Positions 55,779 to 63,927 of a DNA stretch of 64,000 nucleotides are shown here, piece by piece. Numbering within the stretch: position 1 is the stretch's first letter; each line of letters begins with the position of its first letter. This DNA comes from Parvicella tangerina (lineage in GTDB: Bacteria; Bacteroidota; Bacteroidia; Flavobacteriales_D; Parvicellaceae): NCBI RefSeq assembly GCF_907165195.1, contig NZ_OU015584.1:1550001-1614000 (forward strand), written 5' to 3'. Made by a program: the position numbers and the translations under genes. The notes under the pieces are model-generated. The model saw only the letters and a program-made list of their open reading frames with translations. It made no database searches and was not told the DNA's origin.

Positions 55779-56140
55779 GGGAGTTGCAAATGCCATTTAA
55801 CATTTGCCCAGGCCCCATCAAAGATGTCATATTGAGCGAAATACGGAAGCCTCGCTAAAGTATGCAGTCGAGATACCTGATAGTTTCGAGTACTTCATAT
55901 CAATCTCTGCTACAGTTCGACCGCGTTCGCTTAAAGCCTTAGCGGTTGCGAAGTGATTGCATCGACTGACAAGGAGGAGCAATCGTATCGAGAACAAAAA
56001 AATCCCTTGCCAGTTAAAACCAACAAGGGATCTACGAGGAAGCATTCTCCTCCTTTTCACTATGCATATTCATAAGCAGTGATATTAATTATTAATAATT
56101 CTTCTAGCGTCAAACGTCTAGAGTCCAAAGTCAAACTATA
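55779..56140. repeat. Intergenic region with dispersed repeat copy A
   Basis: GCAAATG / CATTTGC (55786-55807) is a perfect seven-base hairpin. Directly after it lies copy A (55808-55903), about 87% identical by eye to copy B at 57425-57521, including the TGTCATATTGAGCG start motif. Beyond copy A the sequence holds a GCGTTCGC / AGCGGTTGCG-like stretch without clear symmetry. Frames across it on the minus strand are not credible genes. Confidence 0.6.
55996..56031 (-). terminator. Terminator downstream of the 257-residue gene
   Basis: Minus strand: ATCCCTTG, a loop and CAAGGGAT pair perfectly over eight bases, followed by seven T residues. It lies about 110 bases after the stop of the gene at 56141-56914. 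Confidence 0.75.
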
Positions 56141-56914
56141 TCACTCAGCAATTATGATCTGCATCGCTCTATCGGTGTCAAACGCATAGTACTGACCATT
56201 GATGAATTCTAAGAACTCAATACCTAGCGCCCCAATGATCACCTCATCACCGTCCAATACAGGCAAGGTAGGCAACTGAGCCGTTAGGGTAGTGGTCTGT
56301 CCTATCATTCCTCCAAGAGTAAGTTGCGAAGAGGTCACCATCGCATTAAGCGACTCTTTCGAATCATTGATGCTTTGGTACTTCTTTAAGTTGGCATCAA
56401 ACCCGTGGTTGGCGATAACACCAATAGCTAACTTAAACTGAAGATGCGTAGCAAACTCCGGAGCACTTAGATCAGTGATCGTGCTAAAGTCCGGTATGTC
56501 TACCGTGATCTCGTTTCTATCCGCATTCACCGTAGCTGTGATCGGTACATGGAGCATTGATTCAAGTTTGTCATCACCATTCAGTTCAAAACCAAGTAGT
56601 TTAGACTTGTGCGTCACCAAATCTATAACTCTCTGACCACGTGAACCACTACCTAGGTTAAGAATCTCACGCATGATTGAAAATAACCTATTTCTCGTGT
56701 TTCGATCAGCAAATGTCTCTTTTGCTTTTGATAGAGCCCTTAGCACAGCCGTGGAGCTAATAGACATTCCAGCAAACTCTTGCTGATTCTCCAAAACACG
56801 CTTGGTGGGTTTACGTTTTTCAAACTTATCGCCTATCATTGCGACCTTTCCTTTTTCAAATTTTATATCGCCCAACTTCCCGTTGATACGAAATAATGAC
56901 TTATATTTTGCCAT
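56141..56914 (-). CDS. Orphan protein of unknown function between direct repeats
   Basis: 257 residues. There is no signal peptide. The N terminus is basic (MAKYKSLFRINGKLGDIKFEKGKVAMIGDKFEKRKPTKR-like, residues 1-40, about every third residue Lys or Arg), followed by a helical segment (LRALSKAKETFADRNTRNRLF). The remainder is strand-rich and ends in YAFDTDRAMQIIIAE. I recall proteins with similar basic starts (GKxGDxxFxxxxGK) in Bacteroidota but cannot name the family or a function. It lies between dispersed repeat copies A and B and has its own terminator, as if acquired as a unit. Genuine gene by length, start and codon pattern. Confidence 0.7.
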   Translation of the reverse strand: MAKYKSLFRINGKLGDIKFEKGKVAMIGDKFEKRKPTKRVLENQQEFAGMSISSTAVLRALSKAKETFADRNTRNRLFSIMREILNLGSGSRGQRVIDLVTHKSKLLGFELNGDDKLESMLHVPITATVNADRNEITVDIPDFSTITDLSAPEFATHLQFKLAIGVIANHGFDANLKKYQSINDSKESLNAMVTSSQLTLGGMIGQTTTLTAQLPTLPVLDGDEVIIGALGIEFLEFINGQYYAFDTDRAMQIIIAE

Positions 56915-56947
56915 GATTTTAGTTTTTGGGATTGAATCTTTTTAGCC

Positions 56948-57080
56948 TGTCACTCTGACTCCGAGCATTCGGAGGAAGGATCTCCTGAAGGATAGCAGTG
57001 CTATAAAGTAGGAGGTACGCTCGCTTCATTTTATTCCACCTGTCAGCAGACAGGCAGGCTCAGTATGACAATTAGTGATT
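56948..57080. mobile_element. MITE-like element with imperfect terminal inverted repeats
   Basis: TGTCACTCTGA (56948-56958) and TCAGTATGACA (57070-57080) are inverse complements over 11 bases with two mismatches. Inside are two perfect hairpins, CTCCGA-gcat-TCGGAG (56959-56974) and CCTGTC-agca-GACAGG (57049-57064). There is no coding capacity. The TGTCAnnxTGA end motif also starts repeat copies A and B (TGTCATATTGA), so these may be parts of the same family. Terminal repeats, small size and hairpins fit a miniature element; flanking target duplications were not obvious. Confidence 0.5.
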
Positions 57081-57424
57081 CAATCTGATTATTAATTACA
57101 CTGTTTAACCTTTAAACAGTAATCTTTCATAGGGTCAATAATGGCGGTTAAAAGGTGTTTTGGCTATTGTTTTTTTCAGCCGGATTATACCATATATAGC
57201 ACTGGTGTGCGTATATTGCTCGCCTTGAGCATTAATGTTTTTAATTGGTAAGTTAAGGTTAGGTCTTCTCTTTAGAACGTATTTTGCCCTGAAGAACTCC
57301 GTTTCTTTCAATAGGTAGACTCAAGGATGAAAAAAGTAGTGCTGTCGATCCCTTAACTGATGGAGAAGCATCTCCTGAACTATAGCAGGAAGTCGCTAGC
57401 TATACAAAGTCTTCCTCTATGAAT

Positions 57425-57521
57425 CCAGCCCCCATCAAAAGTTGTCATATTGAGCGAAGTACGGAAACTTTGCTGGAGTATGCAGCCGAAATACCTCATA
57501 GTTTCGAGTACTTCACATCAA
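57425..57521. repeat. Dispersed repeat copy B
   Basis: Same orientation as copy A (55808-55903), with about 12 mismatches and one gap over 97 bases by eye. Both share CCCCATCAAA, TGTCATATTGAGCGAA, GTATGCAG and ATAGTTTCGAGTACTTCA. With copy A it flanks the 257-residue orphan gene, the MITE-like element and their spacers. Confidence 0.65.
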
Positions 57522-58045: not shown

Positions 58046-58159
58046 AATTTAAAGATAAAAATCGATTCAAACAAAATTCACTTGAGTTATAGGTTTAAAA
58101 GTCTAAATATTTAGTATTTTGTTCGGGAGATAAATAATAAAAACACTAACTACTTGACT
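58046..58159. promoter_or_regulatory. Divergent tracrRNA-cas9 promoter region
   Basis: Minus strand: TATCTTTA (58057-58050) for the tracrRNA. Plus strand: a near match, GTATTTTG (58114-58121), for cas9, one base from the TAnnTTTG consensus. An imperfect direct duplication spans both: ATTACTTGAGGAC-TTTAAA (58032-58053) and ATTCACTTGAGTTA-TTTAAAA (58077-58100). No Shine-Dalgarno sequence precedes the cas9 ATG apart from a GGGAG at 58125-58129, too far away to matter. Confidence 0.45.
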
Positions 58160-61100
58160 ATGAAACGAATTTTAGGATTGGATTTGGGGACAAACTCAAT
58201 TGGGTGGAGTTTGATACAAAATGATTTTGAAAAAAAAGAAGGACAAATTGATGGATTAGGAGTTCGTATCATTCCGATGAGTCAGGATGTATTAGGAAAG
58301 TTTGATGCTGGACAATCACACTCTCAAACGGCAGACAGAACAAAATACAGAGGAGTTCGCAGGTTGTACCAACGAGATAATTTACGTAGAGAACGTTTAC
58401 ATAGAGTTTTAAATATTCTTGGTTTTTTGCCGAAGCACTATGCAGATAATATTGATTTTGAAAAGCGCTTTGGACAGTTTAAACCAGGAAGAGAAGTAAA
58501 GCTCAATTATCGAAGAAATGAACAAGGGGAATATGAGTTTGTTTTTAAGAACTCATTTGAAGAAATGGTGACCGAATTTAAAAAGACACAACCTCACTTG
58601 TTTTATACCAAAGAAAATGGACAAGAAACTAATATCCCTTATGACTGGACACTTTATTATTTACGAAAAAAAGCGCTGTCACAACCTTTGACAAAAGAAG
58701 AGTTAGCTTGGGTCATCCTTAATTTTAATCAAAAACGTGGATATTATCAGTTGAGAGGGGAAGAGGTTGAAGAGGATAAAAACAAACAATTTGTTCAGCT
58801 CAGGGTTAAAGAACTCATAGATTCAGGAGATAAAGTAAAAGGAAACACATTGTATGATGTATATTTTGAAAATGGATGGAAATACGATAAACAAATTGTT
58901 AAAGTAGAAGATTGGAAGGGAAGAACAAAAGAGTTTATAGTAACGATTTCTACATTAAAAAATGGTGACACAAAGTATTCCTATAAAACAGTTGATTCGG
59001 AAAAGGACTGGATCGCTATTAAAGCAAAAACAGAACAGGATATTGATCAATCAAAGAAAACCGTTGGGCAATTTATTTATGAAACATTATTAGAAAACCC
59101 AACACAGAAAATTAGAGGAAAACTGGTAAAAACTATCGAGCGTAAATTCTATAGGGATGAATTCAAACAAATTCTTTCTAAACAAATAGAACTTCAACCT
59201 GAATTATTTACGCGTGAATTATACAAAGCGTGCGTTGAAGAGTTATATCCAAGAAATGAAGCACATCAAAACAGTATAAAGGATAAAGGTTTTGAATATT
59301 TATTTACAGACGATATTATCTTTTATCAAAGACCATTAAAAAGCCAAAAGTCGAATATTGCAGGGTGTCAATTAGAGTTTAGAAGCTATAAAAAGAAAAA
59401 TGTAGAAACAGGAAAACTAGAAGTTGTAAAAGAACCCGTTAAAGCAATTTCTAAATCACATCCTTTGTTTCAAGAGTTTAGAATTTGGCAATGGTTACAG
59501 AATCTTAGAATTTATAACAAAGAGAAAATTGAAAATGGGAAGTTAGAAGATATAACCCACCAACTTTTACCTGATGAAGCGAGTAGAGTAGCGCTATTTG
59601 ATTTCTTAAATTCAAAAAAGGAATTGGATCAGAAACAATTCCTTGACTTTTTTGTCAAACAAAAATTGATTGACAAGAAAGAAAAGGAGAATTATCGATG
59701 GAATTATGTAGAAGACAAAAAATATCCTTTTGCAGAAACCAGATCGCAGTTTTTAACTCGCATGAGTAAGGTAAATGAGATAGAAAATGTAGAGGAATTC
59801 CTTTCTGAAAAAACGCAAGTCGGGACTAACGAAAACAGCCCGTTTATTAGTAGAATAGAGCAGCTTTGGCATATAATTTATTCCGTTTCTGATATTGAAG
59901 AGTACAAAAAAGCATTGGGTAAGTTTGCCGAAAAGCACAATATTGATAAGGATTCTTTTGTAGAAAACTTTATCAAGTTCCCACCATTTAAAAGTGATTA
60001 CGGAAGTTATTCCAAAAAAGCGATCGAAAAACTGCTGCCTGTAATGCGAATAGGTAAATACTGGAGTGAAGAGGAGGTTCCGGATGAAGTAAAAAAACGA
60101 GCCAATTCCATTATGGAAAGAGTGAAAGCTTTAGGGTTAAAAGAAGTTTACTCTGATAAGGATTTAGCCAGTGCACTAGCCAATGTCAGTGATGATGATA
60201 TTTCGAAACAACTGATCAAAAGCTTAATCCCATTTAAAGATATAAATCCTGTAAAAGGTTTAAACACTTATCAAGCGACATATTTGGTGTATGGAAGACA
60301 CTCGGAAGTAGGGGATATCCAAAGATGGGAAAGTCCTGCAGATATAGACACATACTTAAGAAACTTCAAACAACATTCACTAAGAAACCCTATTGTAGAG
60401 CAAGTGGTTACAGAAACTTTGCGTGTGGTTAGGGATATTTGGAGTTATTATGGAAATGGAGAAAGAGATTTCTTTAATGAGATTCATGTCGAGTTAGGTC
60501 GAGAAATGAAGAGCCCAAAGGGAAAACGTGAAGAAATTTCAAAAAGAAATACCGAGAATGAAAATACTAATTACCGAATTCAAGAAGTCCTAAAAGACTT
60601 GATGGGGGATAAGAGTATTGAAGGTGATGTTAGATCGTATTCGCCAAGCCAACAAGAAATATTGAAAATTTTTGAGGAGGGGGTTTCTCAAAATCCTGAT
60701 GCAGATTACTCGGAGGTCAGCGAAGATGAGATTCAAAAGATCAAAAGAAATAATAATCCAACACAAAAGGAGATTCAACGGTATCGACTTTGGTTAGAAC
60801 AAGGATATATTTCCCCCTATACGGGAAAATTAATTCCTTTGAGCAAATTGTTTACACATGAATATCAAATAGAGCACATTATCCCCCAATCAAGATACTT
60901 TGACAATTCTCTTAGTAATAAAGTGATTTGCGAAAGTGAGGTAAATGAAGATAAGGGGAATAAAACAGCTTATGAATACCTGAAAGAGAAAAAAGGCAGT
61001 ATTGTAAACGGTCATCAACTACTAAGTTTAGATGGATATGAAGCTCATGTAGGTAAGTACTTCAAGAAAAACAAACAAAAACTGAAAAAATTACTTAGTG

Positions 61101-62707
61101 AAGATATTCCTGAAGGATTTATCAATAGACAATTAAATGATAGTCGCTATATCAGTAAACTAATCAAAGGTTTGTTGAGTAACATTGTCAGAGAAGAAAA
61201 CGAACAAGAGGCAACTTCTAAGAACTTAATTCCTGTTACAGGAGTCGTTACCTCGAAACTAAAGCATGATTGGGGCTTAAATGACAAGTGGAACGAAATT
61301 ATTGCACCTCGTTTTAAGCGGCTGAATGAATTAACCCAATCAAATAAGTTCGGTTTTTGGGATAAAGAAATCAATGCTTTTAGAATTCAGGTGCCGGATG
61401 AGATAAGCAAAGGGTTTAGTAAAAAGCGAATAGATCATCGTCATCATGCACTAGATGCTTTAGTAGTTGCTTGTACCACCAGAAATCATACGCATTATTT
61501 AAGTGCATTGAATGCCGAAAAAGAGAATTATGGATTAAGAGAAAAGTTATTGATCAAAAATGAAAAAGGTCATTTTACCAAAACCTTTCAAATGCCATGG
61601 AGTGGTTTTACAATGGAAGCTAAAAATGAACTTGAAAAAATCATTGTCAGCTTCAAGCAAAACTTACGGGTAATCAATAAAACCAACAACAAATTTTGGT
61701 CATACAAGGATGAAAATGGTAATTTAAACATAGGTAAAGATGGAAAACCCAAGAAGAAATTACGAAAACAAACTAAAGGAGATAGTTGGGCGATAAGACA
61801 GCCTCTTCATGAAGAAACGATATCGGGAGTTGTTAATTTAACTTGGGTAGAAACTAAAGGAGGAGAACAAATAACCGCAACAAGGAAAGTATTAGATAAG
61901 ACTTTTAATCTTAATAAAATTGAAAAAATTACTGATACAGGAATTCAAAAAATTCTAAAGAAATATCTAACTCAAGAAAAATTTAAGGCAATTGATAAAG
62001 CAGGAAACGTAAGTTATAACTCTGAAATCGCTTTCTCTCCAGAAGGTGTCGATGATTTGAATAAAAATATGAAAGATTTTAATGGAGGTAAGAATCATAA
62101 GCCTATCTATAAGGTAAGAGTCTATGAAAAGGGTAGTGGTAGGTTTCCTCTCAGTCATAAAGGAGTGAATAAAAAGAAATATGCACAAGGCTCTCCGAAC
62201 TTATATTTTACTATATACAGGAATGGAGAAAATAAGTATTATGAGACAGTTCCTTTACATGATGTAATTGCTCATCAAAAAGAGATGGCTCATTTATCTA
62301 AAAATGAAAGAATAGATGTTCCTGTAAAAAGTACGATAATTAATAAAGGAAAGGAAATTGAGGTGGATTTAGCTTTGGTTCTTTCTCCCTTAGATTTAGT
62401 TTATATACCGACATTGGAGGAAAGGGCAAATGGAAATAGTATTGATTTCAATAATTTAACAGATGATCAAATCAAAAGAATATATAATGTCAATGATTTT
62501 TCGGGGTATACATGTTATTTTTCTCCAAATACTTTAGCAAAAGCAATTTACCCTAAAGAAGTTGACATGAAATATAATGAGAAAAAGAAGAAAACTACAG
62601 GTTCTTATGATACTAAAACGGCAAGTTTAGAAGGAGACTCAATCAAAGACTGCTGCATTAAACTTAGAGTAGATAGACTTGGAAATATTTCAAGGCATTC
62701 AATGTAA
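58160..62707 (+). CDS. cas9: CRISPR-associated endonuclease Cas9, type II-C
   Basis: 1515 residues from the ATG at 58160; a TTG two codons upstream is a less likely start. Domains in order: RuvC-I with D8 in RILGLDLGTNSIGW; arginine-rich bridge helix (RGVRRLYQRDNLRRERLHRVL, about 62-82); a large recognition lobe (to about 760); RuvC-II with E778 in IHVELGREM; HNH with H906 in QIEHIIPQS and N929 in DNSLSNK; RuvC-III with H1095/H1096 and D1099 in DHRHHALDAL; then a long C-terminal PAM-interacting part. All catalytic residues are present, so it should cleave both strands of DNA matched to the crRNA-tracrRNA. The length is at the upper end for II-C, as is common in Bacteroidota. A tracrRNA gene is divergent, cas1 lies 73 bases downstream. 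Confidence 0.98.
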   Translation: MKRILGLDLGTNSIGWSLIQNDFEKKEGQIDGLGVRIIPMSQDVLGKFDAGQSHSQTADRTKYRGVRRLYQRDNLRRERLHRVLNILGFLPKHYADNIDFEKRFGQFKPGREVKLNYRRNEQGEYEFVFKNSFEEMVTEFKKTQPHLFYTKENGQETNIPYDWTLYYLRKKALSQPLTKEELAWVILNFNQKRGYYQLRGEEVEEDKNKQFVQLRVKELIDSGDKVKGNTLYDVYFENGWKYDKQIVKVEDWKGRTKEFIVTISTLKNGDTKYSYKTVDSEKDWIAIKAKTEQDIDQSKKTVGQFIYETLLENPTQKIRGKLVKTIERKFYRDEFKQILSKQIELQPELFTRELYKACVEELYPRNEAHQNSIKDKGFEYLFTDDIIFYQRPLKSQKSNIAGCQLEFRSYKKKNVETGKLEVVKEPVKAISKSHPLFQEFRIWQWLQNLRIYNKEKIENGKLEDITHQLLPDEASRVALFDFLNSKKELDQKQFLDFFVKQKLIDKKEKENYRWNYVEDKKYPFAETRSQFLTRMSKVNEIENVEEFLSEKTQVGTNENSPFISRIEQLWHIIYSVSDIEEYKKALGKFAEKHNIDKDSFVENFIKFPPFKSDYGSYSKKAIEKLLPVMRIGKYWSEEEVPDEVKKRANSIMERVKALGLKEVYSDKDLASALANVSDDDISKQLIKSLIPFKDINPVKGLNTYQATYLVYGRHSEVGDIQRWESPADIDTYLRNFKQHSLRNPIVEQVVTETLRVVRDIWSYYGNGERDFFNEIHVELGREMKSPKGKREEISKRNTENENTNYRIQEVLKDLMGDKSIEGDVRSYSPSQQEILKIFEEGVSQNPDADYSEVSEDEIQKIKRNNNPTQKEIQRYRLWLEQGYISPYTGKLIPLSKLFTHEYQIEHIIPQSRYFDNSLSNKVICESEVNEDKGNKTAYEYLKEKKGSIVNGHQLLSLDGYEAHVGKYFKKNKQKLKKLLSEDIPEGFINRQLNDSRYISKLIKGLLSNIVREENEQEATSKNLIPVTGVVTSKLKHDWGLNDKWNEIIAPRFKRLNELTQSNKFGFWDKEINAFRIQVPDEISKGFSKKRIDHRHHALDALVVACTTRNHTHYLSALNAEKENYGLREKLLIKNEKGHFTKTFQMPWSGFTMEAKNELEKIIVSFKQNLRVINKTNNKFWSYKDENGNLNIGKDGKPKKKLRKQTKGDSWAIRQPLHEETISGVVNLTWVETKGGEQITATRKVLDKTFNLNKIEKITDTGIQKILKKYLTQEKFKAIDKAGNVSYNSEIAFSPEGVDDLNKNMKDFNGGKNHKPIYKVRVYEKGSGRFPLSHKGVNKKKYAQGSPNLYFTIYRNGENKYYETVPLHDVIAHQKEMAHLSKNERIDVPVKSTIINKGKEIEVDLALVLSPLDLVYIPTLEERANGNSIDFNNLTDDQIKRIYNVNDFSGYTCYFSPNTLAKAIYPKEVDMKYNEKKKKTTGSYDTKTASLEGDSIKDCCIKLRVDRLGNISRHSM

Positions 62708-62780: not shown

Positions 62781-63674
62781 ATGATCAAGCGAACATTATG
62801 CTTTACTGCGCCTGCTTATTTAAACACGAAAAATGAGCAGTTAGTCGTTAACTACCCTGATAAGGAGCAACCTGCTCGAAAGGTACCCATTGAAGACATT
62901 GGCTATGTAATTCTAGAACATCCGCAAATTACCATTAGTAATCGTTTGCTCGAAAAGCTCACCTTTCAAAATACGGCAATTATCAATTGCGATCAGCAGC
63001 ATCTTCCTGTAGGATTACTGATGCCACTCGCAGGCAACTCACTTCAAAATGAGCGGTTTAGAAATCAACTGGACGCTTCTGTTCCGCTGAAAAAGAACTT
63101 GTGGCAACAGACCGTACAAATGAAAATTAAAAACCAGGCCGGATTGTTGGCAGAGAGAGGAATTAGTTACGATAAAATGCTCTACTGGGCAGGTCAGGTC
63201 ACGAGCGGTGATAAAATGAACCACGAAGCACGTGCAGCGGCTTATTACTGGAGTCAATTGTTCGAAATTCCTTTTTTTAACCGATACCGAAAAGGAGAGC
63301 CCCCCAATAATTTGCTAAACTATGGCTACGCCATACTGCGTGCAGTATGCGCCAGAGCTCTGGTAAGTAGCGGTATGCTACCAACGTTGGGAATTCACCA
63401 TGCAAATAAATACAACGCTTACTGTCTCGCTGATGACATCATGGAACCCTATCGCCCTTATGTAGACATGGTAGTATGTTATTTAGTAGATAATTACGAT
63501 GATATTACCCAATTAACCCCAGAACTCAAAAAAGAACTACTCAGCATTCCAGCTCTTGATGTCATAATTGACGGAAAGAAAAGCCCCTTAATGGTCGCCA
63601 TGAGCAGAACCACCAACAGCCTCCACGAGTGCTTCGCTGGAATAACCCGAAAACTACTATACCCAGAATATTAA
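62781..63674 (+). CDS. cas1: CRISPR-associated integrase Cas1, type II-C
   Basis: 297 residues, normal for type II Cas1. The N-terminal beta domain starts MIKRTLCFTAPAYL; the catalytic helical domain has E149 in NHEARAAAYYW, H206/H207 in GIHHANKYN and D218/D219 with E222 in LADDIMEPYRP. Cas1 with Cas2 integrates new spacers at the leader end of the array. It is co-directional with cas9, 73 bases downstream. cas2 does not follow directly: the next 276 bases hold tandem palindromes and then a GIY-YIG gene begins. A Cas2 gene may lie beyond the window. Confidence 0.97.
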   Translation: MIKRTLCFTAPAYLNTKNEQLVVNYPDKEQPARKVPIEDIGYVILEHPQITISNRLLEKLTFQNTAIINCDQQHLPVGLLMPLAGNSLQNERFRNQLDASVPLKKNLWQQTVQMKIKNQAGLLAERGISYDKMLYWAGQVTSGDKMNHEARAAAYYWSQLFEIPFFNRYRKGEPPNNLLNYGYAILRAVCARALVSSGMLPTLGIHHANKYNAYCLADDIMEPYRPYVDMVVCYLVDNYDDITQLTPELKKELLSIPALDVIIDGKKSPLMVAMSRTTNSLHECFAGITRKLLYPEY

Positions 63675-63687
63675 ACAACCAAAAACC

Positions 63688-63927
63688 AAGGAGACTGAGC
63701 TCAAACCCCGCGCAAGTATCACCTCCAAAAACACCAAAAGGAGCACCCAATAAAGGAGACTGAGTTTGCACCCCGCGCAAGTATCACTCCCAAGAACATG
63801 AAATAAAGCAATAAATAAAGCAATAAATAAAGGAGACTGAGTTTGCGCCTTGCGCAAGTATCATCTCCAAGAACATGAAATAAAGTAACAAATAAAGGCG
63901 ACTGAGTTTGCGCTCCGCGCAAGTATC
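63688..63927. repeat. Four tandem palindromic repeats (about 65-base period)
   Basis: Units start at 63688, 63752, 63829 and 63894, each AAAGGAGACTGAG (fourth: AAAGGCGACTGAG), then a palindrome and CGCAAGTATC. Unit-to-unit distances are 64, 77 and 65; the extra 12 in the second come from a duplicated AAGCAATAAATA. The segments between also match each other (CCAAGAACATGAAATAAAG in two of them), so the whole 65-base block is repeated. On the minus strand TTGCGC-nnn-GCGCAA forms a six-pair hairpin with a three-base loop in units 3 and 4, with one G-U pair in unit 2, and decayed in unit 1. They lie immediately before the GIY-YIG gene. Confidence 0.8.

Follow-up and report, generated by a model that had tools for sequence, protein, structure and literature searches.

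CGTC-tagged REPs, together with their TGTC variants, occur in Bacteroidetes among several phyla (Di Nocera et al. 2013, PMC3733652). In the excerpts of that survey which deal with their structure, the CGTC-tagged REPs have a stem of 8-9 bp that opens with complementary AT, a loop of 4-5 nt and a 3-nt tail which is mostly CCA. Inverted dimers are common, and some of them lie inside longer palindromes, as is the case in H. neapolitanus and A. variabilis (PMC3733652). According to the survey these REPs lack a dedicated transposase, and because none is linked to them their movement was left open by its authors (PMC3733652).

The element analysed here lies in a window of 64,000 nucleotides from Parvicella tangerina (contig NZ_OU015584.1, positions 1,550,001 to 1,614,000), between a 257-aa gene (-, start 56914) and cas9. 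It is probably best explained as a degenerate TGTC-tagged REP dimer that has no transposase ends of its own and is of a kind that spreads as a passenger core of MITEs. The original prediction had described it as a MITE-like element of 133 bases with imperfect terminal inverted repeats, possibly moved by a transposase encoded elsewhere; the observation is partly confirmed and its interpretation partly supported.

Position and build of the element

The element is real and starts at 56948 as predicted, but it ends at 57070 instead of 57080 and therefore measures 123 bp, positions 57071-57080 being flank. Its inverted ends exist (TGTCACTCTGA from 56948, with the partner TCAGTATGACA closing at 57070), although they belong to a pair of palindromic arms and not to a simple terminal-repeat MITE. 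Both internal hairpins that had been predicted are present, and the absence of coding capacity also holds, since no ORF of 80 aa or more runs over the element; the neighbouring frames are 56141-56914 (-) and 58154-62707 (+). The features are collected in Table 1.

Table 1. Coordinates of the element, its parts and related features in the window
Feature	Position	Strand	Remarks
Whole element: degenerate copy, two palindromic arms with TGTC tags in inverted orientation	56948..57070	.	123 bp; paralogous-copy alignment
Left arm: TGTCACTCTGA-[hairpin]-GAAGGATCTCC	56948..56985	+	
Extra hairpin CTCCG-AGCATT-CGGAG, replacing the short apical stem and GNA loop	56959..56974	+	
Spacer separating left and right arms	56986..57010	.	
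Right arm: TGTCATACTGAGC-[30 bp]-GAAGCGAGCGTACCTCC	57011..57070	-	
30-bp segment in right-arm loop, with CCTGTC..GACAGG palindrome	57028..57057	-	Missing from paralogous copy
Outer inverted repeat, left: GATTGAATC	56930..56938	+	Retained in paralogous copy
Outer inverted repeat, right: GATTCAATC	57077..57085	+	Retained in paralogous copy
Copy A, starts TGTCATATTGAGCG; arm-like with different insert	55825..55903	+	
Copy B; similarity to copy A 87% across 84 bases	57443..57521	+	
257-aa gene, start codon 33 bp beyond the left end of the element	56141..56914	-	Member of a family with 8 genomic places

In both arms the basal stem is mismatched and the loop carries an extra hairpin. The stem of the left arm opens with AC.. 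and not with complementary AT, and the GA..GA flanking the CTCCG hairpin is retained. Other CTCCG-type hairpins occur inside arms elsewhere in the P. tangerina genome, and in another genome (G194, loci L174 and L346) CCCCG..CGGGG stands at the matching position. Folded as DNA, the region 56940-57085 gives z = -2.20, with 4 of 200 shuffles equally good. The 9-bp outer inverted repeat has a score of 9, which is equalled by 6.8% of random positions and is thus within chance; inspection by eye revealed no target duplication there. TGTCAT also opens copies A and B, as had been noticed.

The family of the 257-aa gene has no match in Pfam, NCBIfam or PHROGs. One paralog, at 2559531, is 76% identical, and the alignment of the two upstream regions extends through the element, which measures 84 bp in the paralogous copy. 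Compared with this copy, the right arm in the window has exactly 30 extra bases directly after CTGAGC, and the left arm has the CTCCG..CGGAG hairpin at a point where the sequence of the paralog is shorter and degenerate. Since arms that are intact in other places do without these extra segments, we regard them as insertions; for the 30 bp of the right arm, loss in the paralog is a possible alternative. One of three aligned copies in the genome G413 has another 30-bp palindrome at the corresponding place. At both paralogs the element lies 33-35 bp before the gene start, and a promoter-like site is found at 57116-57088 (-), with 4 sites against 1.5 in shuffles. The window copy lies between the putative promoter and the gene start and was duplicated along with the 257-aa gene.

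Some other features were observed in the surroundings. T9SS sorting domains, which point to Bacteroidota, are present in 2 of the 7 proteins scanned. The cas1 gene (62781-63674) is followed, at 63683-63927, by about four imperfect copies of GGAGACTGAGTTTGC..CGCGCAAGTATC and by a frame that begins MSNGYTYILQCADGTYY and looks GIY-YIG-like by eye; no cas2 was seen between cas1 and the window end. Elsewhere in the genome (locus L016, 2622500-2626000), the sole Y1_Tnp gene has its own flanking repeat, which is partly repeated about 1.7 kb away.

The arm and its distribution

The intact arm consists of 28 nt: TGTC, a 5-bp stem, tandem G·A/A·G, a 2-bp stem, a GNA loop and TCTC. Hairpins of the d(GCGNAGC) type and tandem GA pairs are stable in DNA. 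Stem covariation was measured on 49 distinct strings obtained with a pattern that imposes nothing on the stem columns under test; it did fix G·A/A·G and the loop G and A, so their conservation is not independent evidence. In this set 94.5% of the cells are paired. Double changes number 63; shuffling gave 18.1 +/- 3.3, with none of 500 shuffles reaching the observed count, and sliding gave no more than 6. Within an element, the left and right arms are identical in only 3 of 45 convergent pairs; they differ at 77 compared stem sites, and at 64 of these both remain paired. The selected unit is probably the arm, a small self-complementary hairpin preserved at the DNA level. Among 174 distinct arms, G-T cells (39 of 1218) are about as rare as A-C cells (33), a balance that speaks for selection acting on DNA and not on a single RNA strand. 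According to the energy model, single arms fold no better than shuffled ones and both strands behave alike. We infer that the arm is recognised as single-stranded DNA.

In the 3.98-Mb genome of P. tangerina, a single contig, the motif TGTCAYNYTGA has 55 matches (33 + 22), compared with 17 for the reversed pattern, and several of them form convergent pairs of 83-199 bp, several pairs being 83-86 bp long. A covariance model gave 34 matches in the same genome, at least 24 of them at E 0.01 or better, a count that is a lower bound because 150 of 3,385 first-look candidates were scored. Four of the 24 are training sequences (953093, 3144785, 3610414 and 1957263), and the match at 1957263 may be due to chance. 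The window arms are absent from the 34 matches because their loops are altered. The genome family proposed in the original prediction does exist, with dispersed, non-coding members that share TGTCA ends, and a transposase encoded elsewhere is plausible for it. The family is neither single-copy nor without shared boundaries, but the 123-bp form of the window occurs once. BLAST of the element against the genome returned twelve pieces of 14-47 bases besides itself and no full-length second copy.

Beyond this species, 37 of the 395 phylum genomes contain the arm pattern, the reversed control giving 0 among the matches listed. The exact pattern was found in at least 120 stretches of species genomes, in records of many phyla; the 80 titled stretches include Bacteroidales, Anaerolineae, Acidobacteria, Clostridia, Planctomycetota and Armatimonadetes, as well as Alphaproteobacteria, Gemmatimonadetes, Omnitrophota, Latescibacterota and one archaeal MAG. 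Since the arm-bearing records are mostly MAGs, misbinned contigs may inflate this spread over phyla. Where arms in these 80 of at least 120 stretches are neighbours at less than 250 bp, 23 of 33 are convergent; arms are also found singly, in tandem and divergently. As particular arrangements, one locus (L161, G461:C15:42500-46500) is a tandem array of 32-bp units, partly N, each made of one arm plus CATC or similar, and in the genome G031 (L106-L119) arms that end in AGTCGAAGNAT point away from each other with about 20 bp between them, opposite to the arrangement in the window.

The placement of CCTGCC..GGCAGG palindromes in hairpin loops was tested on 13 distinct cases, and 165 of 10,000 permutations scored at least equally high. 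These palindromes have 48 matches in 1.51 Mb, of which 6 are near an arm cue and some of these are false. These counts hint faintly that such palindromes choose hairpin loops.

Alternative explanations

The element could be a classical MITE with TGTCA...TGACA terminal repeats served by an unknown DDE transposase. The common ends, some 12 inverted pairs in the genome and several pairs of 83-86 bp agree with this. Nevertheless, TGTCA...TGACA does not act like the terminus of something that transposes: a flush direct repeat of at least 4 bp was seen at 0 of the 45 convergent pairs, which come from many genomes. Moreover, the arms within one element differ while each remains self-paired, and single, tandem and divergent arms occur as well. 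A recurrent neighbour gene was sought among 2,096 ORFs near arms (clusters by eye); none was found, and hence no recurrent transposase. On this evidence a classical MITE is unlikely. With regard to empty sites, the gene of the congener is only 46% identical and its flanks are not alignable, so that none was found.

Alternatively, the element could be a REPIN mobilised by a RAYT (Y1 transposase) of its own genome, which may since have been lost or may work from another place. Such an origin is improbable, even though the element has two inverted palindromic units, there is one Y1_Tnp gene in its own genome and Y1_Tnp matches occur in 29 of the 36 genomes that contain arms. The gene of P. tangerina is flanked by a different repeat, the GTAG tag is absent, and the genome G031 has 16 matches of the arm core and no Y1_Tnp match. 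In addition, 60 of the listed Y1/RAYT places were examined in two sets of 30; no arm was present in the first set and one in the second, a number equalled by the control pattern, and a dedicated RAYT was rejected. It is similarly hard to credit that the element is a 5'-leader hairpin which regulates the 257-aa gene and is conserved for its role in RNA, for while the equal placement before two paralogs and the promoter-like site would suit this, the element has no Rfam match at E 1, G-T pairs are not in excess over A-C, TGTCA is missing (by eye) from the 330 bases that precede the more distant congener gene and arms elsewhere adjoin unrelated genes.

Carrier MITEs and relation to known systems

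A degenerate REP dimer carried as a passenger is the explanation that we prefer, and it draws on carriers found in other genomes. An outer inverted repeat with a score of at least 10 surrounds 13 of 44 convergent pairs, compared with 2.8% for mismatched flanks and random positions. In the other 31 pairs the outer repeat falls below score 10, and MITE carriage is thus not general on present evidence. The 44 elements include related ones (L151/L166; L219/L228/L248; three of L162). This count replaces an earlier one, with 20 of 180 pairs reaching the 99th percentile, in which overlapping pairs of one locus had been counted repeatedly.

In the genomes G414 and G194 the outer repeat is CACCTTACGCAAA, with 20 matches in each and 0 and 1 in the control. 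The MITEs with this repeat amount to 23 units. A REP pair forms the core of 13, and the remaining 10 have another core or none; examples among these 10 are a unit of 66 bp that lacks a long core, units whose cores are rich in CTCTGTG, and one that contains TGTCATTCCCGC..GCGGGAAT. An exact 7-bp target duplication, located two bases outside the repeat, accompanies 13 of the 23 units, whereas mismatched flanks give 4.3%; of the 13 units built around a REP pair, 8 have it. When one mismatch is allowed the figures are 18 of 23 and 24.5%, the latter being high because the targets resemble TTANTAA. The carriers of G194 and G414 therefore have both TIRs and target duplications, and the REP pair is their passenger: in these two genomes, where movement is demonstrable, what moves is a larger MITE whose terminal repeats are not those of the pair at its core.

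An insertion sequence with the same ends is found only in G414, where 11 IS ends with the CACCTTACGCAAA terminus read into the start MKKELLELYTDYLMSSFSYTTATG; it is known from about 120 bp of one end, after which the contig breaks. The best plasmid relatives of this start are transposases with identities of up to 75%. One such relative, which carries an ISAba11 group annotation, matches NCBIfam IS701_2 with 344 bits (cut-off 250). The start is accordingly IS701/ISAba11-like. By eye, the ends of this relative (GATGTTACGCA and its inverse) resemble the outer repeat GTTACGCA of a pair in the genome G263. A putative second carrier occurs in G542 (Chloroflexi), with the TIR TAGTAGTCAGTCAAGC, which adjoins a REP pair in 10 of 11 matches.

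A single arm is a REP, and two arms inverted around a short spacer form a REPIN-like pair. According to the mechanism proposed, such a dimer would have no ends of its own for a transposase and would spread as the passenger core of MITEs moved by ordinary DDE transposases, while the loops of its arms would tolerate or attract additional palindromes. By analogy with G194 and G414, the window copy may have arrived on a MITE; this arrival is inferential, because its outer repeat is within chance and no target duplication was seen. A wider and more tentative proposal is that TGTC/CGTC hairpin dimers are exchangeable passenger modules: they would insert at the tips of hairpins in mini-transposons that are not related to one another, and smaller palindromes would in turn insert into the dimers. 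If this were true, one widespread hairpin would travel through bacteria on many transposase systems, none of them its own. The MITEs that carry the dimer among several cores make REP movement testable at the bench, and the covarying arm is a probe usable across phyla.

In the open-licence PMC literature the end-motif strings have no match, only TCAGTCAAGC was recovered among the matches listed for the TIR and arm strings, and a link of REP dimers to MITEs with target duplications and to IS701-type IS was not found.

Related to the IS701/ISAba11-type MITEs, the carriers of G194 and G414 share the TIRs, the 7-bp duplications and, in G414, the same-ended IS; on the other hand they have several alternative cores, and the window copy has no CACCTTACGCAAA-type TIR. 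With the REPIN/RAYT system, as presented in the excerpts of its description (PMC6006769), the element shares two inverted palindromic units and a spacer, whereas here no RAYT is flanked by arms and there is no GTAG tag. The closest resemblance is to the CGTC/TGTC REPs, with which the arms share an unpaired CGTC/TGTC tag at one end, an AT stem opening (38 of the 49 arms have T-A at column pair 6-24), what appears to be the same predominance of inverted dimers and the lack of association with a transposase gene. However, the stem here has 5 bp, tandem GA/GA and 2 bp more, with a 3-nt loop; the tail is TCTC(C) in most arms and ATCCA in some of G256; the loops can contain extra hairpins; and the surrounding palindromes in G194 and G414 are MITEs with target duplications. 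Because stem and loop differ, the arm is filed as a variant or sister and not as a plain CGTC/TGTC REP. By these likenesses and differences in sequence, the window element would represent a branch of the CGTC/TGTC REP superfamily, or a group standing beside it.
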